In this document: positions 739 through 28,483 of the stretch, one piece after another
How positions within the stretch are numbered: position 1 is the first letter of the stretch
How the letters are laid out: each line of letters starts with the position of its first letter
DNA from: Porphyrobacter sp. AAP82
Lineage (GTDB): Bacteria > Pseudomonadota > Alphaproteobacteria > Sphingomonadales > Sphingomonadaceae
Assembly (NCBI RefSeq): GCF_000331285.1
Contig: NZ_ANFX01000016.1
Location: 1-64,000 of the forward strand
DNA: 64,000 bases
Direction: 5' to 3'
Translations under genes and position numbers: made by a program
The notes under the pieces: model-generated
What the model was told of the DNA's origin: nothing
The model's database searches: none
Seen by the model: only the letters and a program-made list of their open reading frames with translations

Positions 739-1632
739 ATGGAAAACACCGCCACGACGCAAAGCCCGCCCGATCCCGCCGCCGCCTTCGACCGCGATCC
801 CGCAGACGGCATCCTCGCCACGGCCTACGCGCCGGCGACATTCCGCTTTTATGATCTGGTGATGGCGGGCTTCGTCACCATCCTGCTGCTCTCCAACATC
901 ATCGGTGCGGCCAAGCTGACCTTCGTGAGCGTGCCGTTCTGGCCGCAAGGCTGGTGGCCCGCACCCGACGGCACCTTCATCTACGGCGCCGGGATCCTGT
1001 TCTTCCCGCTGGGCTACGTGATCGGCGACGTGCTGACCGAGATCTACGGCTTTGCCAAAGCCCGCCGCGTGATCTGGGTGGGCACGGCGGCGATGGTTTT
1101 TCTGGCGTTCATGTCGTTCATCGTCACCGCCCTGCCCCCGTTTGCCGGTTGGGAGTGCGCGGCAAGCGGGTTCGGGGGTCAGCGTCCGCCCACCACGACC
1201 GCCGACTCCGCGATCCCTGGCGGGGCGATCTGCCAGATGACCTACGAAAGCGTGTTCGGCAGCACCTGGCGCATCGTCGCCGGATCGATCATCGCCTTCT
1301 GGGCGGGCGAGTTCGTCAATTCCTTCGTGCTCGCCAAGATGAAGGTCTGGACCAGGGGCCGCGCGCTGTGGAGCCGCACGATCGGTTCGACCTTCTTCGG
1401 GCAGGCGGTCGACAGCCTGATCTTCTATCCCGTCGCCTTCCTCGGCATCTGGACGACTGAGGCCGTGCTTACCGTGATGATCACCAATTGGGCGCTGAAG
1501 GTCGCGTGGGAAGCCGCGCTGACGCCGGTGACATACGTGGTGGTGAACCGGCTGAAGAAGGCCGAGGGCGTCGACCTCTACGACATCGAGACCGACTTCT
1601 CGCCCTTCGGCAGCGAAGAGAAGCGCGCCTAG
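739..1632 (+). CDS. yhhQ: Queuosine precursor transporter, YhhQ/VUT family
   Basis: This 297-residue integral membrane protein belongs to the VUT_1/YhhQ family, which imports 7-cyano- or 7-aminomethyl-7-deazaguanine for queuosine modification of tRNA. About six hydrophobic segments are visible. The family-like FPLGYVIGDVLTEIYGF stretch is near residue 90 and a polar WAGEFVNSFVLAKMK stretch follows in the second half. I chose the ATG at 739 (MENTATT) over an upstream in-frame TTG at 703 that nearly touches the tRNA. The central loop (about residues 135-165, with two cysteines and many Thr/Pro) is longer than I expect for the family. The gene converges on ppx and the two stop codons share the bases CTAG. 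Confidence 0.85.
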   Translation: MENTATTQSPPDPAAAFDRDPADGILATAYAPATFRFYDLVMAGFVTILLLSNIIGAAKLTFVSVPFWPQGWWPAPDGTFIYGAGILFFPLGYVIGDVLTEIYGFAKARRVIWVGTAAMVFLAFMSFIVTALPPFAGWECAASGFGGQRPPTTTADSAIPGGAICQMTYESVFGSTWRIVAGSIIAFWAGEFVNSFVLAKMKVWTRGRALWSRTIGSTFFGQAVDSLIFYPVAFLGIWTTEAVLTVMITNWALKVAWEAALTPVTYVVVNRLKKAEGVDLYDIETDFSPFGSEEKRA

Positions 1633-3158
1633 AGCACGATCTGTTCGACGATATCGACCCGCCAGCCGAGCCCGAGCCGGCCGGCGAGGAGCTTCATGTC
1701 TTTCTCGGTCGGCTGGCCGAACAGCGCGGCGTGGCTGGCGGCAAGTTCGAGCACCAGCGCGCCCTCCTCGACCTTGAGGCGACTGACTTCGAGCGAGCGG
1801 GCCGACTGCGCGCCGAGCCTGCGCGCGAGCCACAGCGCAAGGCCCCAGCGCACCGCTTCCTCCAGCGCCTCCTCGCTGGCGAGCGCGCGCACTTCGGCGG
1901 GGAAGGCGAGCTGGTTGCCATTGGCCGCCACAGCCGCAGCGAGCATCGCGCGGCCCTTGCCATCGAGCCCGATCCAGCGCTTGTGCAGTGCCCAGTTGAT
2001 CGCCTGCGGCAGCCGGATGTTGGGCTCGATCTGCATCGAGGCAAGCGCGAGCATGGTCGCTGCAAGGCGCAGCCGCTCGCTCCCGTGGTCGCGCGCGGGC
2101 GCGGCATCGAGGGTCCAGGCGGCCATCCGCGCCGCGAGCGTCGGCTGGGTCCCGCGCTGACTGGCGAACACCGCCACCCCGGCAAGCAGCGGGTCCTGCG
2201 TCCGGGTATGCTCGGGCAGGCGATCGTAAAGCAGCCCTTCACGCAGGCCCCAGGAGGAAAACACCACCCGCTCGGGCGCCAGTCGCGCCAGCAGCGCTTG
2301 CAGCAACACCGCGGCATCGGGGAGCTTTTCGGCGCGCATCGTGCTGATGCGTTCGCGGGTCCTGAGCGCGTCGGTCTCGCTCGCGGAAAGCGCAAGCGCC
2401 AGCTCCTGCGCGCCGGCGGCATCAAGCTCGAAGCCGTGCGGATCGCTCAGCGGCCAGCCCCTTGCGGCCATCGCATAAACCGCCATCGCCCGCCAGGTGC
2501 CGCCCACCAGATAGAGCGTGCCGTTATCCGCCGGGGGATTGGCGGCCAGATCCCAGCCGCCCTTGCGGATCGCCTTGTCGAGCGACTTCTTCATGTCGGT
2601 CCGGTTCTTGCCGCGATGTTCGGGCAGGCGCAGCGTGCCCAAGGGCAGCGAGCTTGCGTCCGCGCATGTCCCCTGTGCGACGCGCACCAGTTCGAGGCTG
2701 CCTCCGCCGAGGTCGGCGACGATCCCGTGCGCATCGGGAAAGGCGCCGATCACGCCGTGGGCGCTGAGCAGCGCCTCTTCCTCGCCCGAAATCACCCGCG
2801 GCTTCAGACCGATCGCGCGCAGTTCGGCGACGAATTCAGGGCCGTTGGCGGCATCGCGCACCGCTGCCGTGGCAACGGTCTCGATGTCCTTGATGCCCAT
2901 ATCGGCGAGCAGCAGTGCAAAGCGCCTCAGGCCGCGCAGTGCGAGCGCCATCGCCTCGTCCGCCAGCCGCCCCGTCACCGCGATCTCGCGTCCGAGCTTG
3001 GCGGTGACCTTCTCGTTCAGCAGCACCGTCGGCGCGCGCATGGTGCCGCCATAGACGACAAGGCGCACCGTGTTCGATCCGATGTCGATGATCGCACGCT
3101 CGCCCCCGGCGCCGCCCAGCGCGCCGTTGCGGTCTGCCCGCCGCTTGCCCCAGATCAT
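1629..3158 (-). CDS. ppx: Exopolyphosphatase / Ppx-GppA phosphatase
   Basis: This 509-residue enzyme of the Ppx/GppA family (ASKHA fold) removes terminal phosphate from polyphosphate, or hydrolyses pppGpp. The N-terminal phosphate-binding motif DIGSNTVRLVVY is at about residues 25-36, and the second glycine motif VADLGGGSLELV is near 140. A helical C-terminal region follows, as in long Ppx proteins. The ATG at 3158 was chosen because it overlaps the ppk stop by 4 bp (ATGA) and the region upstream of it in frame is coding sequence of ppk. The gene is translationally coupled to ppk, giving a synthesis-breakdown pair for polyphosphate. Ppx rather than GppA is inferred from the neighbour. Confidence 0.9.
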   Translation of the reverse strand: MIWGKRRADRNGALGGAGGERAIIDIGSNTVRLVVYGGTMRAPTVLLNEKVTAKLGREIAVTGRLADEAMALALRGLRRFALLLADMGIKDIETVATAAVRDAANGPEFVAELRAIGLKPRVISGEEEALLSAHGVIGAFPDAHGIVADLGGGSLELVRVAQGTCADASSLPLGTLRLPEHRGKNRTDMKKSLDKAIRKGGWDLAANPPADNGTLYLVGGTWRAMAVYAMAARGWPLSDPHGFELDAAGAQELALALSASETDALRTRERISTMRAEKLPDAAVLLQALLARLAPERVVFSSWGLREGLLYDRLPEHTRTQDPLLAGVAVFASQRGTQPTLAARMAAWTLDAAPARDHGSERLRLAATMLALASMQIEPNIRLPQAINWALHKRWIGLDGKGRAMLAAAVAANGNQLAFPAEVRALASEEALEEAVRWGLALWLARRLGAQSARSLEVSRLKVEEGALVLELAASHAALFGQPTEKDMKLLAGRLGLGWRVDIVEQIVL

Positions 3159-5374
3159 GCCACCGCGCCCCGGCGCAAGCTGAGCTTGGGCACCGCGCCC
3201 GCCTCCAGCGATCCGCCGCGTCCCGACAACGACGGGTTGGTCATGAAATAGCGATGGCAGTTGAACGGCTTGACGCCCGCCTCGGTCTCGACCCGCGAAT
3301 AGCTGCCGTCGGGATGCAGCCACCAGCTCTGCTCGCTGTCGAGCATGTTGGCGAGCAGCACCTGCTGGAGCACCTGATCATGGACCGTGCGGTTGAGGAT
3401 CGGGATCAGCGTTTCCACCCGGCGATCAAGATTGCGGCTCATCATGTCGGCAGAGGCGATGAACACTGCGGCATGGGCGGATGGCATGGGGTGACCATTG
3501 GCGAAGGCATAGATGCGGCTGTGTTCAAGGAAGCGGCCGATCACGGATTTGACGCGGATGTTCTCGGACAGGCCGGCGATCCCGGGCCGCAGACAGCAGA
3601 TCCCGCGCACCACCAGTTCGACCTGCACCCCGGCATTGCTCGCGGCATAAAGCCGGTCGATCACGCCTTCATCGGTCAGCTGGTTGCACTTCAGCCAGAT
3701 CGCGGCGGGCTTGCCGTCCTGCGCATTGGCGATCTCGGTGTCGATGCGGTCGTAGATTTCCGTGCGCAGGTCGATCGGCGCGATGTGCAGCCGCTCCAGT
3801 GCGTGCGGTTCGACATAGCCGGTGACGAAATTGAACATCTTGGCCGCATCGCGCCCCATCTTGGCATCGGCGGTGAAGAAGGAGAGGTCGGTGTAGATCT
3901 TGGCGGTGACCGGGTGGTAGTTGCCGGTGCCGAAGTGGCAATAGGTGCGGAAGGTATCACCCTCGCGCCGCACCACCATCGCAACCTTGGCGTGGGTCTT
4001 CCAGTCGGTGAAGCCGTAGATCACCTGCACCCCGGCCCGTTCGAGCGCGCTCGCCCATTTGAGGTTCTGCTCCTCGTCGAAGCGGGCCTTCAGCTCGACC
4101 ACCGCGGTGACCGATTTGCCGGCCTCTGCCGCCTCGATCAGCGCGCCGATCACCGCCGACTGGCTGCCTGCGCGGTACAGCGTCTGCTTGATCGCCACCA
4201 CGTCGGGGTCGGCGGCAGCCTGCCGGATGAAGTCGACCACCACCTCGAAGCTTTCATAGGGGTGGTGGACGACGATGTCCTTCTCGCGGATCGCCGAGAA
4301 GGCATCGCCGTCATGCTCGCGGATGCGTTCGGGGAAGCGCGGGGAATAGGCGTCGAACTTGAGGTCGGGCCGGTCCTCGCGGACGATCTCGGCCAGCCCG
4401 TCGATGCCGATCATCCCGTCGGTCTTGATGAGCGCGGCCTCGTTGATGCCGAGCTGGTCGAGCAGCAGGCTTTCGGCCGCCGGATCGAAATCCTCGTCGA
4501 TCTCGAGCTGGATGACCTGCCCCCGGCGGCGGCGCTGGATCGCGCTGCGGAAGGTGCGCACCAGATCCTCGGCCTCTTCGGCGATTTCGATGTCGCTGTC
4601 GCGCAGCACCCGGAACAGCCCGTCGCCTTCAATCGTGAAGCCCGGAAACAGCGCCTCGGCATAGCGCTGGATGAGCCGCGCGATCGAGATGTAGAGCGCC
4701 CCGCCCTTGCCGGACCCTGCGCCGGTCACACCGTCGGGCACGCGCACGAAGCGCGGCAGGGCGCTGGGGAGCAGCACCATCTCGATCAGCTGTTCGCCGG
4801 TCGCCTCGCGCTTGAGGGTGAAGAGCAGGCCCATGCCTTCGTTCTGGACGAAGGGGAACGGGTGCGCCGGATCGAGCGCCTGGGGGGTGATGATCGGCAG
4901 GATTTCATTGAGGAAATAGCGCCCCAGCCACTTGTGCACCTCGGGGCTCACGCGTTCCTCGTCGGCGACGTGGATGTCGGCCCCGGCAAGCCCGGTGCGC
5001 AGCTGGCGCCAGATCGCCTGCTGGCGCTGCGAGAGGATCGCGAGTGTCTCGCGGATCGCGGTCAGCTGCTGGGCGGGCGAACGCCCGTCGATCGAGGGGG
5101 CATCGAACCCGCGCTGCACCTGGCCGACGAGGCCGGCGACGCGAATCATCATGAATTCGTCGAGATTGCTGCCCGAAATCGACAGGAACCGCAGACGTTC
5201 GAGCAGCGGATAGGCCTCGTTGCAGGCCTCGGCCAGCACGCGCTGGTTGAACTGGAGCCACGAAAGCTCGCGGTTGAAATAGGGGGATTCGTCCGGCCCC
5301 AGAACCGCCATCTGGGTTGTGCCCGCCGCAGCGGCCGCGGGCGCGGGATCTGTGCCGGTCGGTGACGTGCTCAT
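3155..5374 (-). CDS. ppk1: Polyphosphate kinase 1
   Basis: This 739-residue enzyme makes polyphosphate reversibly from ATP. The N-terminal domain begins at YFNRELSWLQFNQRVL. The autophosphorylated histidine lies in CHFGTGNYHP (about residue 480), and the second conserved histidine is in LEHSRIYAF (about 618). Both PLD-like halves are complete and the length is normal. I chose the ATG at 5374 (MSTSPTG), because the residues before it are low-complexity Arg-rich sequence. A 162-bp gap separates it from virB11 upstream, so it may have its own promoter. A weak GTCA-N7-GTCA direct repeat sits at 5493-5510 but in the opposite orientation. Confidence 0.95.
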   Translation of the reverse strand: MSTSPTGTDPAPAAAAAGTTQMAVLGPDESPYFNRELSWLQFNQRVLAEACNEAYPLLERLRFLSISGSNLDEFMMIRVAGLVGQVQRGFDAPSIDGRSPAQQLTAIRETLAILSQRQQAIWRQLRTGLAGADIHVADEERVSPEVHKWLGRYFLNEILPIITPQALDPAHPFPFVQNEGMGLLFTLKREATGEQLIEMVLLPSALPRFVRVPDGVTGAGSGKGGALYISIARLIQRYAEALFPGFTIEGDGLFRVLRDSDIEIAEEAEDLVRTFRSAIQRRRRGQVIQLEIDEDFDPAAESLLLDQLGINEAALIKTDGMIGIDGLAEIVREDRPDLKFDAYSPRFPERIREHDGDAFSAIREKDIVVHHPYESFEVVVDFIRQAAADPDVVAIKQTLYRAGSQSAVIGALIEAAEAGKSVTAVVELKARFDEEQNLKWASALERAGVQVIYGFTDWKTHAKVAMVVRREGDTFRTYCHFGTGNYHPVTAKIYTDLSFFTADAKMGRDAAKMFNFVTGYVEPHALERLHIAPIDLRTEIYDRIDTEIANAQDGKPAAIWLKCNQLTDEGVIDRLYAASNAGVQVELVVRGICCLRPGIAGLSENIRVKSVIGRFLEHSRIYAFANGHPMPSAHAAVFIASADMMSRNLDRRVETLIPILNRTVHDQVLQQVLLANMLDSEQSWWLHPDGSYSRVETEAGVKPFNCHRYFMTNPSLSGRGGSLEAGAVPKLSLRRGAVA

Positions 5375-5536
5375 CGCTTCCCTGTCCTGCGCGGTGCCGC
5401 CTGTGTGCGGGCCGGGCTTTGTCCTGCGCGCCATGATGCGCCGGGCGCGCATGTGTTCGCAAGCGGCTTACGTGTAAATGCGGATGCGGGGATTGTCACA
5501 TAATCGTCAAGCAGTTCGCACCGGCCAGCGCGAATA

Positions 5537-6553
5537 TCAAACAAGCGAGCGGCTATCCGCGATTGCGGTGATCCCGCGCTTGCCGTTGGCATCGCGGCCG
5601 AGCTGGACGATCACGTCGATGACGCTGGCGGCATAGGCGATGGTGTCCGAACGGGTCAGGCCGATGCCGGTCTGCATCACCATCAGCGAGAGCTGCTCCA
5701 GCGCGCCCCGCAAGGAGTTGGCGTGGATCGTCGAAAAGCTGCCGGGGTGGCCGGTGTTGATCGCGCGCAGGAAGCTGACGCTCTCGCTCCCTCGCAATTC
5801 GCCCAGCACGATGCGATCGGGACGCAGGCGGAGCGCGGCCTGGAGCAGTTCGTTGGCGGTGACCTTGGCCTCGCCGAGTTCGCCCTTGACCGCGACCAGC
5901 CCGACCGCGTTCTCACCCGGGAACCGCAGTTCGGGCGTGTCCTCCACCAGCACCACGCGTTCTTCGGGCGGAATTTCGCCGAGCATGGCGTTCAAGAAGG
6001 TGGTCTTGCCGGTGCTCGTCCCGCCCGAGATCAGGATCGTGCGGCGCGCGCGGATCGCGGCGCGCAGGTAGGCGATCGGCTGGGCCTGCGGATCGGGCAG
6101 GTCGAATTGCATCTCGCCGACCAGCGGCCCGGTGTCATAGGCGTCCAGGGGCAGATCGAGCCGGCGATGGCGGCGGATCGCCATGACCCAGTGCTTGCGG
6201 CTGGCGGGGGGCCCGCAGAATTGCACGCGCGCGCCATCGGGCAGGGTTGCGCCCAGCAAGGGGTGTTCGCGGTTGATCCCCTGGTGGCTGACCCGCGCGA
6301 CCTGTTCGGCAAGGCGCTGTACCAGCCGGTCATCGATCTCGGGCGTATCGAGCCGCTGCATCCCCGGGCTGGCGGCGTCCTCGATCCACACCTCGCCCGG
6401 GCGGTTGACCATGATCTCGGTCACGGTGTCGCGTTCGAGCCAGCGGCGGAAGGGCGCGAGATAGGCGTCGAGATAGACGCTGCGCTCGGGCGAAAGCGGC
6501 GTGCTGGCCGCCGTGCCCTCCGCCGCTTCCAGCCGGTGGATGTCCGCGGCCAT
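5537..6553 (-). CDS. virB11: Type IV secretion ATPase VirB11
   Basis: This 338-residue protein belongs to the VirB11/GspE traffic ATPases, which form a hexamer on the cytoplasmic face of the inner membrane. The N-terminal domain carries TEIMVNRPGEVWIE (residues 45-60). The RecA-like domain has Walker A GGTSTGKTTF at about 176-185, an Asp box (LVEDTPEL), Walker B region RIVLGELRG and the His box (GSFSTIHANS). All ATPase motifs are intact. It is the last gene of the virB operon, 5 bp after virB10. Confidence 0.93.
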   Translation of the reverse strand: MAADIHRLEAAEGTAASTPLSPERSVYLDAYLAPFRRWLERDTVTEIMVNRPGEVWIEDAASPGMQRLDTPEIDDRLVQRLAEQVARVSHQGINREHPLLGATLPDGARVQFCGPPASRKHWVMAIRRHRRLDLPLDAYDTGPLVGEMQFDLPDPQAQPIAYLRAAIRARRTILISGGTSTGKTTFLNAMLGEIPPEERVVLVEDTPELRFPGENAVGLVAVKGELGEAKVTANELLQAALRLRPDRIVLGELRGSESVSFLRAINTGHPGSFSTIHANSLRGALEQLSLMVMQTGIGLTRSDTIAYAASVIDVIVQLGRDANGKRGITAIADSRSLV

Positions 6554-6558
6554 GGCCG

Positions 6559-7713
6559 TCAGCCGCCGACCGCGGTGAAATCGAGATCGCGCGCGGTGTA
6601 GACGCGGATCGGCTCGCCCGCGCGCACCTTGATGGTGGGGCTGATCGGGCCCTGCGATTGCACCGCCGAATTGGCCGCGTTCTGCGCGCTGCTGCCGAGC
6701 AGAGCGCCGCCGATGCCGCCGGTCGCCACCGCGCCGAGGCCGCCGACCACCGACAGCAGCAGGCCCGATCCGAAGCGCTTGAAGAAGTGGCTGTTGACGT
6801 CGCCCTCGATCCCCGTCGCCCCGTCGAAGCTGACCGCCGGCGAGGCGAGGTTGACCGACACGCCATCGGGCCGGATCAGGCGTGTCCAGATCACGTAGGC
6901 ACGGCGCTGGCCCTGCTCCACCCCGGCGCGGTACTGGCCGATCAAGCGCGAGGAGCGCGGGACGAGCACGCGCTTGCCATCGAAGCTGCGCACGTCCTGG
7001 TTGACGACCGCGCGGACATAGCCGGGCACATCGGTGTTGATCGCGGTCTCGAGGATCGCGGGGATCAACGTGCCCTCGGTCACGGTGGTCGAGGGGTTGG
7101 CCATCGCCCGCGCCTGCGCGGGCGCACCGCCGACGCCGCCGATGCTGCTGGCAAAGGCCGATGCGCCGCCGGTGCCGCCGACGCCCGCTGCGGGGGTTCC
7201 CGGCGGAGGCGCCGAGGGTCCTTCGGCCAGGCGCAGGCCCCGCGCCGATCCGCCATCGAACACCGTGATCGGGCTGTTGTACGGATTGGCCGCGGGCACG
7301 CTCATCGCGCCCGGATTGCCCGAATAGACCGGCATCGGCGCAGGATCGGCCTGCGGCACGACCGGCACGGCACCCGGCTGGACCTGCGCGGGATCGGTCA
7401 CCGGCTGCAACTGCACCGGCGCCTGCTGGGCCGCCTGCGGTGCAGTGACGGCGGGGTTGCCGATGCCCTGCGGCTCGGCGGTGCGCGCGGCGTTCATCGC
7501 CCAGAAGGTCACCGCGCCGAGCAGACCGACCACGGCAACGCCCGCGGCAAGGCCCGCACCGTCACCCTTGGCCTTGCGGTCGGTGACCGCGGGGAAAGCC
7601 GCGCGGCTGGCAAGATCGATGATTTCGGCGCTCTCGCGGGTGCGCGGATCGACCGCCCCGTCATTCCCGTCTCCGCCACCCTTCTTGGGGGGCAAACGCA
7701 TGGCCAGACGCAT
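6559..7713 (-). CDS. virB10: Type IV secretion protein VirB10
   Basis: VirB10 (TrbI family) spans both membranes and links the outer-membrane pore to the energised inner-membrane parts. The 384-residue product has a short cytoplasmic N-terminus, one membrane segment (about residues 54-72), a long Pro/Ala/Gln-rich periplasmic linker and the conserved C-terminal beta-barrel domain with TLIPAILETAINTDVPGYV and RSSRLIGQY motifs. The ATG at 7713 was chosen because AGGAGA lies 8 bp upstream. It follows virB9 by 37 bp. Confidence 0.93.
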   Translation of the reverse strand: MRLAMRLPPKKGGGDGNDGAVDPRTRESAEIIDLASRAAFPAVTDRKAKGDGAGLAAGVAVVGLLGAVTFWAMNAARTAEPQGIGNPAVTAPQAAQQAPVQLQPVTDPAQVQPGAVPVVPQADPAPMPVYSGNPGAMSVPAANPYNSPITVFDGGSARGLRLAEGPSAPPPGTPAAGVGGTGGASAFASSIGGVGGAPAQARAMANPSTTVTEGTLIPAILETAINTDVPGYVRAVVNQDVRSFDGKRVLVPRSSRLIGQYRAGVEQGQRRAYVIWTRLIRPDGVSVNLASPAVSFDGATGIEGDVNSHFFKRFGSGLLLSVVGGLGAVATGGIGGALLGSSAQNAANSAVQSQGPISPTIKVRAGEPIRVYTARDLDFTAVGG

Positions 7714-7750
7714 CAGATGCTCTCCTTGGCAGTTCGTATCGGTTGAACGG

Positions 7751-8557
7751 TCATTGCTTGCCCTTCCCGCGCGGGCCGGACAGCGCCGCCTGCCGCGAGG
7801 ACGGCGGCATCGGGCCGGTGTTGGTGAGGGTCGCCGTGTCCTTGCCCGAGCGCAGGATGATCTGCGCGGGCACCCCGTCGACGACAACGGTATCACCGCG
7901 CGGCGTGTAGTTGACCGGGCCCTCGTCGCCTTGTGCATTGGTGATGAGGATCGCGGGGATCGGCGCACCGGGCGCCCAGGTCAGGAACACCGACTGGCCA
8001 TCGTCATAGGTGCGCGCGGGCAGCAGTTCGGGCGAACCCGCGCTTGCCCAGGCGAAGTTGAACTTGGCCGGATCGGGGGCGGCCGCCGCGGATGGCTGCG
8101 GCTCGGCGGCCGCGCGGATCGCCTGCGCCTCGGCCTCGGCGATCGCGGCAAGGCGCGCTTCCTCGGCGGCCCTTTCGAGTTCGGGATAGCGGAATTGGAG
8201 AACGTAAAGCGCGTCGGCCCTGGGGCTCGCCACCAGGTCGAACAGGTAGGTCCGCTTGTCGGTCACCACCGTCATGTTGGTGCGCGCGGCAGGCTCCAGC
8301 GGCTTCACGAACAGGATCGTCTGCGCCTTGTTGGGCTGCACCTGCCAGGCCGCGCTGTCGCCGATCGCGACGTTCTCGATGATCTCGTCGGGGGCGAACT
8401 TGATGGTGGTCTGGACCTTCACGCGGCCATCGATGCGGACCACGGCATCGGCATTGTAGACGAGCGTCTGCAACCGGCTGTCCTGCGCGGCGGCAGGGGC
8501 GGCAAGGGGGCAGGCGAAGGCGAGTGCGAGGCCCATGAGGAGCGCGGCGCGGGTCAT
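7751..8557 (-). CDS. virB9: Type IV secretion protein VirB9
   Basis: VirB9 (TrbG/CagX family) forms the periplasmic outer-membrane core ring with VirB10. The 268-residue precursor has a clear signal peptide ending near APAAAQ-D (residue 25). The VirB9 N-lobe follows (YNADAVVRIDGRVKVQTTIKF, then NMTVVTDKRTYLFDL), and the C-terminal lobe (KFNFAWASAG onward, IPAILITNAQG) binds VirB10 and normally VirB7. No VirB7 lipoprotein gene is visible beside it. The start overlaps the virB6 stop by 4 bp. The cell wall-spanning position is family knowledge. Confidence 0.9.
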   Translation of the reverse strand: MTRAALLMGLALAFACPLAAPAAAQDSRLQTLVYNADAVVRIDGRVKVQTTIKFAPDEIIENVAIGDSAAWQVQPNKAQTILFVKPLEPAARTNMTVVTDKRTYLFDLVASPRADALYVLQFRYPELERAAEEARLAAIAEAEAQAIRAAAEPQPSAAAAPDPAKFNFAWASAGSPELLPARTYDDGQSVFLTWAPGAPIPAILITNAQGDEGPVNYTPRGDTVVVDGVPAQIILRSGKDTATLTNTGPMPPSSRQAALSGPRGKGKQ

Positions 8558-9780
8558 TGGTATGTCTCCGAAGGCGTCGTCGGCTTGGGGGCGGGCGCGG
8601 ACGGGCCCGAGGCAGAAGTGGAGGTGGAGGTGGAGGTGGAGCGGAAGCGGTTCCCGATACCGCGGGTGCGCGCCGGGGCAGCGCCCAGCGCCGCCGCCTG
8701 CCCGCCCGTGCCGGTCGCAGCGATCACGCGGGTTTCGCGCGCCGCGCCGCCTGCCGCATCGGTGTCATTGGCGACCACCACCTGCGGCGGCGGGGCGACA
8801 TCGGCACGGCGCGCGGTTGCAGCAGCGGCGACGGCCGGGGCGATGTTGGTATCGCGCGGCGCGCCGGCCGGGACCTGCGGCACGGCGACGGGGCGCGGGC
8901 CTTCGGCGGGGCGCTCGCGCTCCTTGCCCGGCACCAGGCCGAACACCTGCCAGCCGGCCACCATCGTCGAGGCGACCTTCAGCGCCAGCAGCATCAGCGC
9001 GACATGCACCGCGCCGATCAGGAAGAACGCCATCGCTGCTTGCTGGTCGATCTTGCCCGGCACAGCGACCAGCGCGGCGAGCACGGGGACCGAGATCTCG
9101 AGCATGATCGATCCGCCCAGCACCGCAAAGAGCGGCGCCAGCGCCATCATCGTCAGCCCCTTGAGCCAGCCAGTGAACAGCCCGCGCGTGCCGTCGAACA
9201 GCGCCATCACCACGAAGATCGGGCCGAGCGCGAGCAGCAGCGCCAGCGCAATGCGCGCGGTGACCAGCATGCCGACCGTGCCGAGCAGCAGCAGCATCGC
9301 CCCCAGCCACATCATCCCGGGCGGCGAAAAGGCGCTGATGTTGGAGGTATCCCCGCTCGCCTGCTGGATCGCGAGGAACACCACGTCGAGCTTCTGCGCG
9401 AAGACCATGGTGGCGGATTCGTTCTGCGTGCCCGTCAGGATGCCGGCGATCTGGTCGGGCCCGCCGATAAAGATGTTGTAGAACACGCTCGAGAAGGCGA
9501 CGAAGCTGGTGGCGAAGGTCAGCACCAGCCCCAGCGTCATCATCTTCGGGACAAGCGCGCGCACCGAGATGTTCGAGCGGCCGAGCATCAGCGAGATGCC
9601 GAAGAAGCCCACGTAGAGCCCCAGCAACACCGTCAGCGCGAAGGCGAGCTGGCCATCGTCGCCGAACAGGCGGTTGAAGGCCTGTTCGCTGACGCCGCTG
9701 GCGATGCAATCGACCGCCGTCAGCGCCGCCGAAACGCCGGTGCCCATCGCCTGCGCGGCGGTATCGCAGCTCGCGCTCAT
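8554..9780 (-). CDS. virB6: Type IV secretion inner-membrane protein VirB6
   Basis: This polytopic inner-membrane component (VirB6/TrbL family, 408 residues) has about six hydrophobic segments between residues 30 and 300. These include the run ALTVLLGLYVGFFGISLML and the Ala/Leu-rich IALALLLALGPIFVVMALF. The last 110 residues are a disordered, low-complexity tail rich in Ala, Thr, Ser and Pro that includes an STSTSTSTSAS run from a 6-bp tandem repeat. The ATG at 9780 overlaps the virB4 stop (ATGA). VirB6 normally contacts VirB8, which has no visible gene here. Confidence 0.88.
   Translation of the reverse strand: MSASCDTAAQAMGTGVSAALTAVDCIASGVSEQAFNRLFGDDGQLAFALTVLLGLYVGFFGISLMLGRSNISVRALVPKMMTLGLVLTFATSFVAFSSVFYNIFIGGPDQIAGILTGTQNESATMVFAQKLDVVFLAIQQASGDTSNISAFSPPGMMWLGAMLLLLGTVGMLVTARIALALLLALGPIFVVMALFDGTRGLFTGWLKGLTMMALAPLFAVLGGSIMLEISVPVLAALVAVPGKIDQQAAMAFFLIGAVHVALMLLALKVASTMVAGWQVFGLVPGKERERPAEGPRPVAVPQVPAGAPRDTNIAPAVAAAATARRADVAPPPQVVVANDTDAAGGAARETRVIAATGTGGQAAALGAAPARTRGIGNRFRSTSTSTSTSASGPSAPAPKPTTPSETYQ
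8618..8641. repeat. 6-bp tandem repeat inside virB6
   Basis: Four perfect copies of GTGGAG (plus-strand reading) lie in the 3' part of virB6 and encode the Ser-Thr run of its disordered tail. Changes in copy number would keep the reading frame. Confidence 0.8.
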
Positions 9781-12206
9781 TCGGCGGCCTGCCACATGGA
9801 GTCGTCTTCCGGGTCACCCGGACCGTCCGGCCACGCCCTCCCGGTTAGCGGCGGATACCAGGCCGAGGGCGAATCGCCGACCGCCTCGCGCAGCAAGTCG
9901 AGCCGCCGCACCGCGCTTTCGCGGCCCGACAGGATCGTCAGCACTTCCGGCGCGCCCGACAGGTCGAGGCGCACCACCACCGACGCATCGGGCTGGCGCA
10001 CCAGGAAGCAGCGCGAATGCGCAGGGAGGCTGCGGATCAGGGCGAATTCGTGGGCCGTGAGGCCGAAGCCGTCGCAGTAATCCTCAGGCCGCGCGCGGCT
10101 GTTGGGCATGAACACCATCGTCGCGGTCTGCTCGACCAGTGCGGTCGCAATGCGGCTGTCGAGCGCGTCGCGCGCCGACTGGGTGGCAAAGCCGACCAGC
10201 GCATTGCGCTTGCGCAGGGTCTTGAGCCAATCGCGGATGCGCGCGGCAAAGACCTCGTCGTCCAGCGCCTTCCAGCCTTCATCGATCAGGATCATCGTCG
10301 GCAGCCCGTCCAGCCGCTCGTCGATGCGGTGGAAGAGATACATCATCGTCGGTGTGCGCAGGCGCGGGTTTTCGAGCAGCGCGGTCATGTCGAAGCCCAT
10401 CACCCGGGTTTCGAGATCGAGCCGGTCGGCGGCATTGTCGAACAGCCAGCTGTGCTCGCCCTCACCGATCCACGCACCAAGCCGGTCCGCAAGGTCGCCC
10501 GGCTTGGGACGGCGCGCGCCTGCCAGCAGCTCCTTGAAGTGGCGCAGGCGGCGCAGCGAGGGATCGTTCGCGTAGGTCGCATCGACCGCGGCCGAGAGCG
10601 TCGCGAATTCCTCGGGCCCGTCGGCCTTGAGCAGCACGGCGAGCCAGTCGCGCAGGAAGGCGCGGTTTGCCGGCGTGTCCGACAGCGCAAGCGGATTGAA
10701 CCCGGTCGGCTCGCCCGGCGCGATGCGGTCATAGCGCCCGCCGATCCCGCGGATGAACAGCTCCGCCCCGCGATCCTTGTCGAACAGGATGGTGCGCGGT
10801 TTGAATTTTTGCGCCTGCGCGGCGAGGAAATTCATCACCACGGTCTTGCCCGAGCCGCTCGGCCCGATCACCGAAAAATTGCCGAGGTCGCCGTGGTGGA
10901 AATTGAAGAAGAACGGCGTCGCGCTGGTCGTTTCCAGCAGCGTGACCGCATCACCCCAGTGGTTGCCGGCAGCCTGCCCCAGGGCAAACCCGTGGAAGCT
11001 GCCGAAACCGGCCATGTTCGCCGAGGAAATCAGCGCGCGGCGCACGATATACTCCTCGTTCCCCGGGAACTGCGCCCAGAAGGCGGGTTCGAGGTTGGTG
11101 TCCTCGCGCACCGCGATCGCGCCGGTATCCGCGAGCGCGGCCGCGCAGGCGGCCATCGCGTCGTCGAGTTGGGGAAGCGTGGCGGAGCGCACCAGCACGG
11201 TCAGGTGATGATCGCCGAAGCCCACCGCCCCGTTGCCGAGCAGATCGCGCGCGGCGAGCATGTCGGCGCGTTCGGCCGCGGCCTCCTCGTCCACCGAGCG
11301 CGAGCGGCGCAGCGCGAGGTCGATCCGCTCCTTGGCCGTGGTGCGCTCGTTGGGCGCGTAGCTTTCGGTGACGACCATCTCGTAGGGCAGGCGCAGCAGG
11401 TTATCGAGCAGGCCGGGCGAGGTCGCCTCGGGGTAATCCTTGAGGCCGAGGATGGCGGCGAAATCGGGCGCGGCGCTGCCGCGCAGCTCCATCGCATCCA
11501 GCCCGAAGCTCGCGCGGCGATAGGGCAGCATGTGGCCGATATCGGTCTCGGGGCTCGGCCGGCGCACCGGGCGCATCTCGCCGTTGTAGAGCGCGGAGAG
11601 CAGTTCGAGCATTTCCGAATTGGTGCCGCCACTGGCCGAGCCGGGTGCCTGGTAGTCCCCCAGCACCGCCGCGCCGTAATTCTGCAAGGATGCGACCAGC
11701 CCGGTGATCGCTGCCTTCAGGCTGCGCAGGTCCTTGGGATCGGCCTCCGGCTCGTCCTGTCCGGCGCGGCTGAACATCTTCGAAAGGCGCTCGGGCAGCC
11801 CGGTCTTGCCGCGCGCGGGCCGGCGGATCAGGGTGACGAACTGGTCATTGATGAACAGCGATCCGCCTGCCAGCCGCTGCTTCCAGCGCGCATCGATATG
11901 CCGGCTGAGCGCATCGGGGAACTCCGCGTCCAGCTCCACCTCGACCCGGCGGCGGATGACGTGGTGATACATCACGAAGCGCGCATCGAGCGTCGAGCGC
12001 AGCATCACCTCGCGCGTGGCGGCGTGGGCGTTCAGGGCATCGCTGTCCTCGGTCTCGAACAGGAGGCCGGGCACCTGGATCGCGCTCATCACCGAGCCAT
12101 CGCGCAGCAGCACGGTGTTCTCGTCGACAAGGCGCGCATAGGGCAGGCGGTCGCCGACGCGGGCTTCCCTGGCGCTCCACGCGGCGGCTCCGATCCACTT
12201 CACCAT
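9777..12206 (-). CDS. virB4: Type IV secretion ATPase VirB4
   Basis: VirB4 (CagE/TrbE family) is the large ATPase needed for pilus subunit handling and assembly. The 809-residue product has the CagE N-terminal domain (GDRLPYARLVDENTVLLRDG) and a RecA-like C-terminal half. Walker A GPSGSGKT is near residue 446 and Walker B MILIDEGW near 640, followed by KRNALVGFATQSARDAL. I prefer the ATG at 12206, preceded by AAGGTGGG, to an in-frame GTG three codons upstream. Length and motifs are those of an intact family member. Confidence 0.93.
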   Translation of the reverse strand: MVKWIGAAAWSAREARVGDRLPYARLVDENTVLLRDGSVMSAIQVPGLLFETEDSDALNAHAATREVMLRSTLDARFVMYHHVIRRRVEVELDAEFPDALSRHIDARWKQRLAGGSLFINDQFVTLIRRPARGKTGLPERLSKMFSRAGQDEPEADPKDLRSLKAAITGLVASLQNYGAAVLGDYQAPGSASGGTNSEMLELLSALYNGEMRPVRRPSPETDIGHMLPYRRASFGLDAMELRGSAAPDFAAILGLKDYPEATSPGLLDNLLRLPYEMVVTESYAPNERTTAKERIDLALRRSRSVDEEAAAERADMLAARDLLGNGAVGFGDHHLTVLVRSATLPQLDDAMAACAAALADTGAIAVREDTNLEPAFWAQFPGNEEYIVRRALISSANMAGFGSFHGFALGQAAGNHWGDAVTLLETTSATPFFFNFHHGDLGNFSVIGPSGSGKTVVMNFLAAQAQKFKPRTILFDKDRGAELFIRGIGGRYDRIAPGEPTGFNPLALSDTPANRAFLRDWLAVLLKADGPEEFATLSAAVDATYANDPSLRRLRHFKELLAGARRPKPGDLADRLGAWIGEGEHSWLFDNAADRLDLETRVMGFDMTALLENPRLRTPTMMYLFHRIDERLDGLPTMILIDEGWKALDDEVFAARIRDWLKTLRKRNALVGFATQSARDALDSRIATALVEQTATMVFMPNSRARPEDYCDGFGLTAHEFALIRSLPAHSRCFLVRQPDASVVVRLDLSGAPEVLTILSGRESAVRRLDLLREAVGDSPSAWYPPLTGRAWPDGPGDPEDDSMWQAAE

Positions 12207-12235
12207 GAGGCCCACCTTACCATGTCAGGATGTCC

Positions 12236-12547
12236 TTAAGGCGCATAGGAGTTGCACCCCCAGCGCTTGAAATTGGGCACGCGCGGGCACTTCGAAACCT
12301 TGGTGATCCACAGGTCGAAGATGCGCGGCTCGCGCAGGGATGCGAAATAGCCCACGCCGTGCATCACCGCCGGGATCAGCAGGAAGCCGAGCAGGAAAAG
12401 CCCGTTCTGGATCAGCAGGTTGCGCAGGATCAGGAAGGCGATTGTCGTCACCATCATGTTGATGATGAAGAAGTTCATCGTCACGCCCGCGAACATCTGC
12501 GGGCGGGTGAGCGCGCGGTGCACCGGGTTGCGGACGAGGTCGCTCAT
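12236..12547 (-). CDS. virB3: Type IV secretion protein VirB3
   Basis: This is a 103-residue inner-membrane protein of the VirB3 family, a small partner of VirB4. It has the typical N-terminus (NPVHRALTRPQMFAGV), then two adjacent hydrophobic segments (about 22-45 and 48-65), and the C-terminal signature REPRIFDLW. It sits 10 bp after virB2 and 29 bp before virB4. Confidence 0.9.
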   Translation of the reverse strand: MSDLVRNPVHRALTRPQMFAGVTMNFFIINMMVTTIAFLILRNLLIQNGLFLLGFLLIPAVMHGVGYFASLREPRIFDLWITKVSKCPRVPNFKRWGCNSYAP

Positions 12548-12557
12548 CAGACGCCCT

Positions 12558-12869
12558 TCAGCCTGCCGCGGCCTGGATACCGGCGACGATGGTGGTCGCG
12601 CCGAACAGGATGAAGACGCCGATGATGACGGTCGCGCCGAAGCGCCAGTTCATCCGGCCGGTGAGCATCATGAAGCCGATCGCGGCCACCGCCATCACCG
12701 CGATGGTGGTCGCCACCGTGCCGAGCAGCGTGCCCTGGAGCCACAGCAGCGCATTGTTGATCGGGCCCGAACCGGCCGGGTCGGCATTCTGCGCGAAGGC
12801 AGCGCTGTGCGCCGAGACAAGCGCAAGCGCGGCGGCGAGGCGGGCGGGGATACGGAATTGCGACATCAT
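12558..12869 (-). CDS. virB2: Type IV secretion pilin VirB2
   Basis: This is the major pilus subunit precursor (TrbC/VirB2 family), about 103 residues. It has a long signal peptide ending near SAAFAQ and then two hydrophobic helices separated by a short polar loop (TGRMNWRF), the standard pilin layout. There are two consecutive ATGs (12869 and 12866), preceded by AGGAA, and either may be used. An upstream in-frame codon would overlap virB1 and is unlikely. Confidence 0.88.
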   Translation of the reverse strand: MMSQFRIPARLAAALALVSAHSAAFAQNADPAGSGPINNALLWLQGTLLGTVATTIAVMAVAAIGFMMLTGRMNWRFGATVIIGVFILFGATTIVAGIQAAAG

Positions 12870-12913
12870 GTCTTTCCTGGTTTTCTCACATAGCGGTGCG
12901 GCGGCGCGGACGA

Positions 12914-13570
12914 TCACCGGCCCGGCGCGCGCGCATGGTTGGACAGCCGCCCCATGATGGCGGCGACATATTGCTTCGTTTCGCGGATATTGGGAACGCC
13001 GCCCGAACGCTCGACCCGTCCGGGACCGGCGTTGTAGGCGGCGAGCGCCTTCTCGATATCGCCGCCGAACCGGTCAAGCTGTTCGCGCAGATACCGCGCC
13101 CCGCCCTCGAGATTGGCGAAAGGGTCGCGCGGGTCGACCCCGAGATAGCGCGCGGTGCCCGGCATCAGCTGGGCAAGGCCCTGCGCGCCGACGGGCGAGA
13201 CCGCGTTCTCGTTCCAGCGGCTCTCCTGCCACACCACCGCTTCGAGCAGCGCGGACGAGAGGTCGAAGCGGGCGGAAAGCTCGGCGATCTTGGCGGCGTA
13301 TCGCTGCGGCACCCCGGCAGCGTGGCGCGCGGGATCGGCGATGGCGTAGTCGGGGACGCCCGAAGCCCCGGCGAGCACGGGCAGATCGGCGGGCCCGGCG
13401 GCATTCGCAGGCGCGGGCGCGGCGTCCTGCCCGGCGAGCGGACCTGCCACCCAGCGGGCACCGCCAGCGTCCAGTTCCAGCACATCGGCGCGCGCCTGGC
13501 CTGCATGGCCGAAAGCAAGCCCGGCACCTGCAACAATTGTCATGACGCGGCAAGCCGCGGCGAGAATCAT
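12914..13570 (-). CDS. virB1: Lytic transglycosylase, VirB1-like
   Basis: This 218-residue periplasmic muramidase of the SLT family opens peptidoglycan locally for assembly of the secretion channel. It has a signal peptide (residues 1-28, ending QARA-D) and an Ala/Pro-rich linker. The catalytic domain carries the glutamate in WQESRWNENAVS, then GAQGLAQLMPGTA and ALAAYNAGPGRV. GGAGGG lies about 8 bp before the ATG at 13570. It is the first gene of the virB operon and has the strong Pho-box candidate about 40 bp upstream. Confidence 0.92.
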   Translation of the reverse strand: MILAAACRVMTIVAGAGLAFGHAGQARADVLELDAGGARWVAGPLAGQDAAPAPANAAGPADLPVLAGASGVPDYAIADPARHAAGVPQRYAAKIAELSARFDLSSALLEAVVWQESRWNENAVSPVGAQGLAQLMPGTARYLGVDPRDPFANLEGGARYLREQLDRFGGDIEKALAAYNAGPGRVERSGGVPNIRETKQYVAAIMGRLSNHARAPGR

Positions 13571-13609
13571 GTCTCGGCCCTCCAGAGTGTCCCGCTTTGT
13601 CTATCCTAA

Positions 13610-13627
13610 ATGACAGACAGGTGACAG
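13610..13627 (-). promoter_or_regulatory. Pho box (PhoB-type operator) before the virB operon
   Basis: On the minus strand the site reads CTGTCACCTGTCTGTCAT: two 7-bp half-sites, CTGTCAC and CTGTCAT, separated by 4 bp. This is the classic Pho-box architecture (CTGTCAT-N4-CTGTCAY) with at most one deviation in 14 half-site positions. A possible -10 (TAGGAT) follows after 2 bp, and the virB1 ATG is 40 bp away. PhoB control is inferred from the motif alone. Confidence 0.6.
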
Positions 13628-13720
13628 TACGAGGAAAGCCCCGGGGCGATGGCAGCGGATAGCCGGGACCCATCCTGCCGCTTTTTCGCGCAGGTGTGTC
13701 CCGGGCTCCACATCAAAGGA

Positions 13721-14457: not shown

Positions 14458-16017
14458 GTGAAAAACATCCAACGCACTCTGATCCTGGGTTGCAGCCTGG
14501 CCGCTCTGGCGGGTTGCGGCGCAGACGAGATCGTCTCGCCCGGCACCGGCGGCAACATCATCATCAACAATCCGGCGCCCACCCCGACTCCGACCCCCAC
14601 CCCGACGCCGACCCAGACCCTGGTCACCCCGGCTGCCGGCTGCCCGACCATCAACTCGACCGGCGGCCTCACCGACAGCGGCACCATCTCGGGCCCGACC
14701 GGCACCTACCGCGTTTGCAGCCTGCCGGCCGTGATCAACGTCAGCGACACCCTGCCCTACATCCAGGGTCTCCTCTACGCGCTTCCGGGCCGCGTCGACG
14801 TTGGCGTGGACCGCGGCTTTGCGAGCACCGGCAGCACCGTCACCCTGACCGTCGCGCCGGGCGTGATCGTGTTCGGTTCGACGGGTCGTTCCTACCTGCT
14901 CGTCAACCGCGGCAACGCGATCCAGGCCAACGGCACCGCCGCTCGTCCGATCGTCTGGACCAGCCGCGACAACGTGCTCGGCCTCGCCGATGACACCTCG
15001 ATCGGCCAGTGGGGCGGCGTGGTGCTGACCGGCCGCGCGCCGGTTTCGGATTGCAACAGCGGCGGCGTGAACACCGCAGCCAACCCGACCAACAACGCGA
15101 CCTGCCAGCAGTCGCTCGAAGGCGAGCCGGTGACCGTCAGCTTCGGCGGTGGCAACTCGGCCGACAGCTCGGGTTCGTTCACCTTCAACCAGATCCGCTA
15201 CTCGGGCTTCAGCCTGGCACCGGGCAACGAATTGCAGTCGCTGACCACCGGCGGCATCGGTTCGGGCACCACCATTGCCAACCTCATGTCGTTCAACAGC
15301 TCGGATGACGGCCTTGAATCCTTCGGCGGCACCGTGCGCATGCGCAACGTTGCCGTAATCGGCCACGACGATGACGGTCTTGACGTCGACACCGGCGCGC
15401 AGTTCGATGCGCAGTATGTCGTGGTTGCCCAGCGCAGCCTCGGCGACAACCTGATCGAGCTCGACTCGCCCGACGGCGCGGCGACCCCGATCGGCGCCCT
15501 GCCGCAGACCGTGATGCGGGTGTCGAACTTCACCTTCATCGAGCGTTCGACCAACAACGACCAGGTCGTGCGTGCCCGCGGCGGTGCCAAGCTGGTGCTC
15601 GCCAACGGCGTGATCGACACCAACACCGAAACCTGCGTCCGCATCGACGAGGCCGCCACCCAGGCCGCCGGCCCGCAGTTCAACAGCGTCGTCGGCGATT
15701 GCGATCCGGCTGCGCCGGTCCGCGGCACCGCCAACGACGCCACGACCAACGCTGCCGTCGCCAACGCCTTCGACAGCAACTCGAACATCGCCTTCACCAT
15801 CACCCTCACGGGCTTCGTGAACGGCACCGGCGAGAACGGCCGCACCGCTTTCAACGCCAACACGCTGTCGACCTTCTTCGAGACCACCACCTTCATCGGT
15901 GCTGCGAACGATGCGGCCGCCGCCAGCGCGCGTTTCGGCAGCTGGACCTGCAACTCGGCGACGCTGACCTTCGGCGGCACCACCAACCTGTGCAACAGGC
16001 TCCCGGTCTACTCCTGA
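14458..16017 (+). CDS. Outer-membrane lipoprotein, probable parallel beta-helix
   Basis: This 519-residue protein starts at a GTG preceded by AGAGGGGA. It has a lipoprotein signal (positive start, hydrophobic core, lipobox LAGC with Cys 20), a Thr-Pro dipeptide linker (about residues 41-52), and then a long Gly/Asn/Thr/Asp-rich region. Repeated short strands such as PIVWTSRDNVLG, GQWGGVVLTGRAP, TIANLMSFNSSDDGLES and AQYVVVAQRSLGDNLIE are typical of right-handed parallel beta-helices. Several cysteines occur. It stands 102 bp before a TonB-dependent receptor gene, so the two probably act together on one ligand at the cell surface. The ligand is unknown. No enzyme motif is claimed. Confidence 0.75.
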   Translation: MKNIQRTLILGCSLAALAGCGADEIVSPGTGGNIIINNPAPTPTPTPTPTPTQTLVTPAAGCPTINSTGGLTDSGTISGPTGTYRVCSLPAVINVSDTLPYIQGLLYALPGRVDVGVDRGFASTGSTVTLTVAPGVIVFGSTGRSYLLVNRGNAIQANGTAARPIVWTSRDNVLGLADDTSIGQWGGVVLTGRAPVSDCNSGGVNTAANPTNNATCQQSLEGEPVTVSFGGGNSADSSGSFTFNQIRYSGFSLAPGNELQSLTTGGIGSGTTIANLMSFNSSDDGLESFGGTVRMRNVAVIGHDDDGLDVDTGAQFDAQYVVVAQRSLGDNLIELDSPDGAATPIGALPQTVMRVSNFTFIERSTNNDQVVRARGGAKLVLANGVIDTNTETCVRIDEAATQAAGPQFNSVVGDCDPAAPVRGTANDATTNAAVANAFDSNSNIAFTITLTGFVNGTGENGRTAFNANTLSTFFETTTFIGAANDAAAASARFGSWTCNSATLTFGGTTNLCNRLPVYS

Positions 16018-19077: not shown

Positions 19078-19752
19078 TCAGTTCAGATCGAAGACATAGC
19101 CCAGCGAGCGCACCGTGCGCAGCGGGTTGCCGCCGCCGGCCGACTTGATCGCCCGCCGGAGCCGGCCGATCCACACATCGACCGTGCGCTCGTCGATCGG
19201 CGGTTCGCGCTTGCCGAGGCCGTTGATGAGGTCCTCGCGGGTCAGCACCCGGTTGGGATTTTCGGCGAGGAAGCGCAGCAGGCGGAATTCGTTGGGTCTG
19301 AGGACAATCGGCGCCTCGTTCCAGCGCGCCTGCAAGGCCGCCATGTCGATCGTCAGCGCGCCGAGCTCGAACCACCGCGTCGCCTGGCGCTCGACCCCGC
19401 GCGATTGCAGCGCCAGCACCCGGTCGAGCACCGCGGTGCGGGTGAGCGGCCCGATCACGTAGTCGTCCGCCCCGGCGCGCAAGGCGCGGCGGCGGTCCTC
19501 GGGGTCGTCTTCCTCGAGAACCATGGTGACATGGGCATCGACCGTGCGGGCATCGGCGCGCAGCCGGCGGCACATCTCAAGCCCCGCCAGCTCGGGCATC
19601 ACCCAGTCGACAAAGGCCCACATCGGCCCCTCGACCAGCCTCCGCGGCCCCTCGGGCCCCAGCCGGTCGAAGGTGAAGCGGCGCTGGTCGTGAACGAAAT
19701 CCTCAAGGCTTTCGCCCAGTTCGCTCGTCAGGAAGATATTGACGACATCCAT
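19078..19752 (-). CDS. Orphan OmpR/PhoB-type regulator with a degenerate receiver domain
   Basis: This 224-residue protein has an N-terminal receiver-like domain (1-115) and a C-terminal winged-helix DNA-binding domain of the OmpR/PhoB family (about 125-224; NEFRLLRFLAENPNRVLTREDL, then ERTVDVWIGRLRRAI and VRSLGYVF). The phospho-acceptor position is present (VDWVMPELAG, Asp 49). However, the N-terminal acidic pair is replaced by TSE, and the conserved Lys of the KPF motif is replaced (IGPLT). Normal phosphorylation chemistry is therefore doubtful. No histidine kinase gene is adjacent. A GTCA direct repeat 42 bp upstream could be an operator. Confidence 0.85.
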   Translation of the reverse strand: MDVVNIFLTSELGESLEDFVHDQRRFTFDRLGPEGPRRLVEGPMWAFVDWVMPELAGLEMCRRLRADARTVDAHVTMVLEEDDPEDRRRALRAGADDYVIGPLTRTAVLDRVLALQSRGVERQATRWFELGALTIDMAALQARWNEAPIVLRPNEFRLLRFLAENPNRVLTREDLINGLGKREPPIDERTVDVWIGRLRRAIKSAGGGNPLRTVRSLGYVFDLN

Positions 19753-19793: not shown

Positions 19794-19811
19794 GTGACGC
19801 GTTTGTGACTG
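19794..19811 (-). promoter_or_regulatory. GTCAC direct repeat upstream of the orphan regulator
   Basis: The minus strand reads CAGTCACAAACGCGTCAC: two GTCAC elements spaced 11 bp start to start, as in Pho boxes, with 11 of 14 half-site positions matching the Pho consensus. The distance to the regulator ATG (about 42 bp) is like that of the box before virB1. It could be a binding site for PhoB or for the regulator itself. Confidence 0.35.
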
Positions 19812-27481: not shown

Positions 27482-28483
27482 ATGGCACGCTTCCCCTTCT
27501 CCGCAATCGTCGGTCAGGACGAGATGAAACAGGCGCTGCTGATCGCGGCGGTGGACCCTGCGATCGGCGGGGTGATGGTGTTCGGCGATCGTGGCACGGG
27601 CAAGAGCACCGCGGCGCGCGCGCTCGCGAGCCTGCTCCCACCGATCATGGCGGCGGACGGCTGCCCCTATGGTGCCTCCAAGGAGGATCAGGCGCGCTAT
27701 CCCGAGGTGTGCGGACGCGGCAAGCTGGTCAAGCGCCCGGTCCCCTTCGTCGACATGCCGCTGGGCGCGACCGAGGACCGGGTGATCGGCTCGCTGGATC
27801 TGGAACGCGCGCTGCGCAGCGGCGAGAAGGCGTTCGAGCCCGGGCTGCTGGCCAAGGCGCATCGCGGCTTTCTCTATATCGACGAGATCAACCTTCTGGA
27901 GGATCACCTTGTCGACCTGCTGCTCGATGTCGCGGCCTCGGGCGAGAACGTGGTCGAGCGTGAAGGCCTGTCGGTCCGCCACCCGGCCAAGTTCGTGCTG
28001 ATCGGCAGCGGCAATCCCGAAGAGGGCGAATTGCGCCCGCAGCTGCTCGACCGCTTCGGGCTGTCGGTCGAGGTGCGCACCCCCAAGGATATCGAGACCC
28101 GCATCGCCATCATGAAGCTGGTTGCCGAGAACGAGGCTGACCCGGAAGGCTTTGCGGCGCGCTGGGCCGGGGCGGACGAGACGATCCTGGGGCGGGTCGC
28201 CAAGGGCAAGGCGCGCCTGCCCAAACTGACCCCGGGCGAAGATGTGCTGCGCGATGCCGCCGAGCTGTGCCTTGCCGTCGGCGCGGACGGCCTGCGCGGT
28301 GAGCTGACCCTGATGCGCGCCGCCCGCGCGCTGGCGGCGCTCGAGGGGGCGAAGAAGGTTGGCCGCAAGCACCTTGTTGCCATCGCACCCCTGGCGCTCC
28401 GGCACCGCCTCAGGCGCGACGTGCTCGACGAGACGGGCTCCACGGTGCGCATCACCCGGGCGATTGCCGAGCTGTTCGGATGA
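27482..28483 (+). CDS. bchI: Magnesium chelatase subunit I
   Basis: BchI (333 residues) is the AAA+ motor that, with BchD and BchH, inserts Mg2+ into protoporphyrin IX. Walker A GDRGTGKST is at 35-43, Walker B is FLYIDEINLLEDH near 135, and sensor motifs follow (LIGSGNPEEGELRPQLLDRF). It is the first gene of the bchIDO operon. The 69-bp leader holds TGTCCAA and TGTCAGG half-sites of the PpsR type (27420-27452) but no full TGT-N12-ACA site. Confidence 0.97.
   Translation: MARFPFSAIVGQDEMKQALLIAAVDPAIGGVMVFGDRGTGKSTAARALASLLPPIMAADGCPYGASKEDQARYPEVCGRGKLVKRPVPFVDMPLGATEDRVIGSLDLERALRSGEKAFEPGLLAKAHRGFLYIDEINLLEDHLVDLLLDVAASGENVVEREGLSVRHPAKFVLIGSGNPEEGELRPQLLDRFGLSVEVRTPKDIETRIAIMKLVAENEADPEGFAARWAGADETILGRVAKGKARLPKLTPGEDVLRDAAELCLAVGADGLRGELTLMRAARALAALEGAKKVGRKHLVAIAPLALRHRLRRDVLDETGSTVRITRAIAELFG

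Follow-up and report, generated by a model that had tools for sequence, protein, structure and literature searches.

A Pho box kept almost family-wide before virB1 points to phosphate-starvation control of a type IV secretion operon in Erythrobacteraceae

The sequence CTGTCACCTGTCTGTCAT, at 13610–13627 on the minus strand of a 64,000-nucleotide stretch of Porphyrobacter sp. AAP82 DNA (the window), and thus on the strand of the virB genes, is likely to be a genuine Pho box within a PhoB-activated promoter of a virB type IV secretion system (T4SS) operon. Because this box precedes the operon and is kept across almost the whole family, the secretion machine probably belongs to the phosphate-starvation response of the bacterium. 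The features on which this reading draws, as predicted from sequence, are listed in Table 1.

Table 1. Positions of the virB1 promoter elements, the virB–ppk–ppx genes and other Pho-related features in the window.
Feature	Position	Strand	Remarks
Pho box	13610..13627	(-)	half-sites CTGTCAC (13627-13621) and CTGTCAT (13616-13610), 11-bp register
Weak third half-site CTTTCCT	13632..13638	(-)	11 bp upstream of Pho box; retained only in some near relatives
-10-like hexamer CAAAGC	13594..13599	(-)	exactly 10 nt after Pho box
virB1, lytic transglycosylase	12914..13570	(-)	PF01464
virB2 pilin	12558..12917	(-)	PF04956
virB3	12236..12547	(-)	PF05101
virB4 ATPase	9777..12215	(-)	PF03135; Walker A GPSGSGKT
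virB6	8554..9795	(-)	PF04610
virB9	7751..8557	(-)	PF03524
virB10	6559..7968	(-)	PF03743; true start probably within ORF
virB11 ATPase	5537..6553	(-)	PF00437; Walker A GGTSTGKT
Inverted Pho-like site TTGTCACATAATCGTCAA	5493..5510	(+)	virB11–ppk gap; second-best site of the pst-derived matrix in the window
ppk, polyphosphate kinase 1	3155..5452	(-)	84 nt after virB11
ppx, Ppx/GppA exopolyphosphatase	1629..3323	(-)	PF02541; overlaps ppk
Divergent PhoB-like response regulator, atypical receiver	19078..19752	(-)	rival or accessory regulator
Pho-like site CAGTCACAAACGCGTCAC	19794..19811	(-)	before PhoB-like regulator; CA 10 nt after it

Measured from its nearer edge, the box is 39 nt away from the ATG of virB1 (13570), and the sequence is exactly as described in the original prediction, which had placed it 40 bp before the gene. 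The upstream neighbour of virB1 is a TPR gene on the same strand. Two 7-bp half-sites with the 4-bp spacer that characterises a Pho box are present, and their bases agree with CTGTCAT-N4-CTGTCAT at 13 of 14 positions and with CTGTCAY-N4-CTGTCAY at all 14, as had been claimed (13 to 14 of 14). A likeness to the proximal box of E. coli pstS, put forward in the original prediction, also proved sound, since that box (CTGTCACCTGTTTGTCCT) is identical to the virB1 box at 16 of 18 positions. A perfect CTGTCAY-N4-CTGTCAY is expected by chance ~0.001 times per 64 kb, in agreement with the earlier rough estimate of well under once, and ~0.05 times per 2.9 Mb; the virB1 box is the sole perfect example in the 2.9-Mb genome. 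When the window was scanned with a matrix derived from 37 pstC and pstS sites of the genomes compared, aligned on their boxes, with virB1 excluded, the virB1 box was the top site. With the same matrix the phoA, phoB and pstS boxes of E. coli also scored high. The best of 1.9 million Markov-shuffled positions fell just short of the virB1 box (17.2 bits versus 17.4).

The means of reading such a box are encoded in the same genome, where phoR, the pst genes, phoU and phoB are clustered (L072) and PhoB scores above its NCBIfam cut-off. In its recognition helix, RTVDVHIRRLRKA, this PhoB does not differ from E. coli PhoB, giving a PhoR–PhoB pair with an intact DNA-reading helix. PhoB was present in all genomes of the genus set (described below) but two incomplete ones (G013 and G034). 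The motif of the virB1 box also occurs at the genome's own pst promoters, the pstC and pstS sites being weaker than the virB1 site (~11/14 each). A composite promoter pattern placed virB1 first with no mismatches, pstC among five sites with one mismatch and pstS among those with two. This pattern matched 35 times in the genome versus 9 times for its reverse, and many of the weaker matches are likely to be chance. Among the other sites matching the pattern, four precede TonB-dependent receptors (L240, L241, L248 and L255; C33, C34, C12 and C17), which are candidates for the phosphate regulon of the organism. Receptors of this class also occur in the PhoB regulon of Caulobacter (PMC11208175). 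A point against PhoB control of virB is that many PhoB sites in E. coli are transcriptionally inert, though these are mostly intragenic ones (PMC10294691).

The geometry of the promoter fits the same picture. In E. coli phoA, phoB and pstS, the -10 hexamer (TATAGT, CATAAT and TATAAC, respectively) starts exactly 10 nt after the box. At this fixed distance virB1, pstC and pstS of the bacterial group studied here all carry a YA dinucleotide, which is TA in pstS and CA in both pstC and virB1, and CA stands 10 nt past the virB1 box in 32/34 loci of the genus and 73/80 named ones. The virB1 hexamer itself matches TATAAT poorly, although pstC carries CATGGC at this position. TAGGAT and TAGACA, which lie nearer the box, were considered as the -10 element and dropped, since the aligned pstS, pstC and E. 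coli promoters place it at 10 nt. The distance from the box to the -10 region argues that PhoB would activate virB rather than repress it.

Conservation was assessed in two sets of sequences. In the first (the genus set), virB1 upstream regions from 37 genomes were oriented and compared; the second, which partly overlaps it, comprised 80 named Erythrobacteraceae loci from Erythrobacter, Porphyrobacter, Qipengyuania, Tsuneonella, Pelagerythrobacter, Aurantiacibacter, Pontixanthobacter, Altererythrobacter, Croceibacterium and Citromicrobium. A box matching at least 12 of 14 positions was found within 100 nt of virB1 in 32/37 genus genomes, versus 3/1,336 control windows taken from these loci. 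When half-site gaps of 0–11 were compared, only a gap of 4 was enriched (32 versus 0–3 loci). Scrambled half-sites (n = 200) were matched in a mean of 0.17 loci, with one reaching 27/37, presumably as a near-repeat of the real motif. The half-site cores carried ~1.6–2 bits per column and the upstream flank ~0.1. Across the named loci, the box scored at least 10 bits with the pst-derived matrix in 75/80, and one of the five below this value (L167) simply lacks upstream sequence. The box was weak, displaced or absent in 5/37 genus genomes, and has been lost or altered in a few lineages (e.g. G005, G017 and G030). Since the loci are related by descent these counts are not independent events, and the argument is instead the contrast with the flank. 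The comparison of close relatives with the same operon, proposed as a check in the original prediction, thus found the box to be kept family-wide. When searched for elsewhere, the whole virB1 promoter motif occurred at most once per genome, and therefore no effector list was obtained.

The operon that follows the box has the order virB1-2-3-4-6-9-10-11, after which come ppk and the overlapping ppx. VirB4 and VirB11 with intact Walker A motifs, together with VirB2, 3, 6, 9 and 10, identify a VirB-type T4SS. No match to VirB8 (PF04335) was found in the whole genome, with no room for it between virB6 and virB9, and none to the VirD4 coupling protein (PF02534), so that the apparatus does not qualify as a VirB/VirD4 conjugation system. 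For a T4SS that almost all members of a family retain, the lack of both proteins is unusual. The VirB apparatus is already on record as vertically inherited: such a T4SS occurred in each of the 14 Erythrobacter genomes that PMC4919336 compared, and an incomplete set (virB2-3-4-6-9-10-11) was described in Citromicrobium (PMC3338782), where the conserved chromosomal T4SS was guessed to import DNA. A broader reading, which we offer as speculation and hold to be doubtful, is that this minimal apparatus without VirB8 and VirD4 is a family-wide phosphorus-acquisition device, switched on by PhoB together with polyphosphate metabolism, that gains phosphate by importing extracellular DNA or exporting scavenging proteins.

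Further genes in the window were noted. A 519-aa lipoprotein-like ORF (14458–16017, plus strand) with no Pfam or NCBIfam match lies beside a TonB-dependent receptor and is preceded, at ~100 nt, by two low-scoring Pho-like half-site pairs. Genes of magnesium-chelatase type (ChlI and a VWA subunit; 27482–30183, plus strand) suggest that a photosynthesis gene cluster adjoins the T4SS, an arrangement described for Group I Erythrobacter (PMC4919336).

In the mechanism that we propose, low external phosphate would lead PhoR to phosphorylate PhoB, two molecules of which would occupy the tandem CTGTCAY half-sites, these standing in for a -35 element. Bound PhoB would then recruit RNA polymerase, a step suggested by the -10 region exactly 10 nt beyond the box, and virB1–virB11 would be transcribed. 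In genomes such as that of AAP82, transcription would probably read on into ppk–ppx.

A different protein could be the main reader of the box, namely the PhoB-like regulator encoded ~5.5 kb upstream of virB1, which might sense something other than phosphate. The DNA-binding domain of this protein is closest to that of PhoB and keeps the RTVDV..RLR of the recognition helix, its gene is near virB1 in 15/20 relatives, and its own promoter shows the same spacing of two half-sites and CA. However, its helix departs from that of PhoB by H to W and R to G changes, its own promoter prefers CGTCAC half-sites, and its gene is absent from eight genus genomes (G004, G009, G018, G019, G027, G030, G036 and G005), six of which have a virB1 box of at least 12/14 all the same. 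We rejected the regulator as sole binder because genomes without it retain the box, and we regard it as an improbable main reader. Since 6/8 genomes without the paralogue retain the box and PhoB is near-universal in the genus, PhoB is the simplest reader, and the paralogue may be an accessory one. The receiver of this regulator lacks the usual acidic pair and the conserved lysine, and its conserved promoter takes the form NCGTCACAAACGCGTCAC-N10-CA; a site similar to its Pho-like site precedes the gene in 15 of the 20 relatives examined. Outside the genus, the sampled genomes gave only ordinary PhoB-like matches to it (31–40% identity).

Other OmpR-family regulators likewise use tandem repeats in an 11-bp register. 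One of these, such as ChvI, might control virB in the way that BvrR does in Brucella, where it binds the virB1 promoter (PMC9491525), and a paper title (Mantis and Winans 1993, cited in PMC4086400) has the ChvI of A. tumefaciens complementing an E. coli phoB mutant. By contrast, the published ChvI motifs, TTGC-N3-GCAA and GCC-N8-GCC (PMC9731502), and the CenR motif, TGA-N8-TGA (PMC9275681), are not the CTGTCAY repeat found at pstS and pstC of these genomes. Reading of the virB1 box and core promoter revealed neither ChvI motif. This difference in published motifs led us to discount ChvI and CenR, and we consider control of virB by a regulator of this kind decidedly improbable.

The box could also exist for the sake of ppk–ppx, with the virB genes as passengers in the transcript. 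Polyphosphate genes are classic phosphate-response genes, and wherever a genus genome has both genes on one contig, ppk follows virB1 at a distance of 7–8 kb. A scan of the 84-nt gap between virB11 and ppk found no terminator-like or promoter-like site, which makes read-through from virB into ppk plausible; the inverted Pho-like site in this gap is kept in several near relatives and not in distant ones. Yet among 26 named genomes ppk was 7.9–8.2 kb downstream of virB1 in 16 and elsewhere in 10, and all 10 of the latter retained a recognisable box (11 to 14 of 14). These genomes (L145–L148, L152–L154, L159, L161 and L189) belong to Qipengyuania, Tsuneonella and Pelagerythrobacter, with one named Erythrobacter vulgaris. 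G006 of the genus set is a further case: its ppk and virB1 are on separate contigs, and its box, which is perfect, lies further upstream of virB1. Moreover, Caulobacter ppk1 is phosphate-responsive yet not PhoB-dependent (PMC11208175). The retention of the box where ppk is unlinked indicates that it goes with virB, and a box serving ppk–ppx was rejected on this comparison as very improbable. The ppk–ppx pair that the original prediction had cited is indeed downstream on the same strand; in view of the same 10 genomes, the argument drawn from it has to be revised.

That the match is a chance likeness without function has next to no probability and is already refuted as far as sequence allows: a matrix scan gives some sites in any 64-kb window, but this one is conserved in 32/37 genomes amid a randomised flank, with 4 nt as the sole enriched half-site gap. 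Taken together, the persistence of the box both without ppk linkage and without the PhoB-like paralogue makes PhoB the best candidate activator, and virB rather than ppk its likely target.

The type of box, PhoB, the T4SS of these bacteria and a phosphate input to a T4SS via virG are each already known, and what appears to be undescribed is Pho control of this T4SS. A search of the open-access literature returned no account of a Pho box in front of this virB operon. The first-copy T4SS of Erythrobacter (PMC4919336) and the virB set of Citromicrobium (PMC3338782) are most likely the same operon, having the same gene set and vertical inheritance, and neither paper, in the text searched, ties the T4SS to phosphate or a Pho box. 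The T4SS of the Erythrobacteraceae has been known for years with no condition of use assigned to it. The family-wide Pho box supplies a testable one, phosphate limitation, under which its expression, substrate and purpose can be sought.

Compared with the PhoB promoters of E. coli (pstS, phoA and phoB), the virB1 promoter has the same two TGTCA half-sites, 11-bp register and -10 position, and would be read by a PhoB with the same recognition helix. It differs from these, and from PhoB-activated pstS and pstC of Caulobacter, in preceding a T4SS operon rather than phosphate-uptake genes and in its weaker -10 region. Caulobacter crescentus offers another parallel, since PhoB there controls a type II secretion system whose exported ElpS stimulates phosphatase activity (PMC11208175). 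A secretion machine and TonB-dependent receptors in an alphaproteobacterial PhoB regulon would be common to both, whereas the system is type II with exported ElpS in Caulobacter and type IV here. In Brucella, an OmpR-family regulator likewise acts directly before virB1 (PMC9491525), but the regulator and its recognition motif differ. Finally, virG of A. tumefaciens is induced by phosphate starvation (title of Winans 1990, cited in PMC4086400), so that phosphate starvation feeding into a VirB-type T4SS would be shared with Agrobacterium. The input there passes through the regulator gene virG on a virulence plasmid, whereas here the box stands directly at virB, in a chromosomal, family-wide operon. 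If our reading is true, this would constitute direct PhoB control of a T4SS, beside the known indirect case through Agrobacterium virG.
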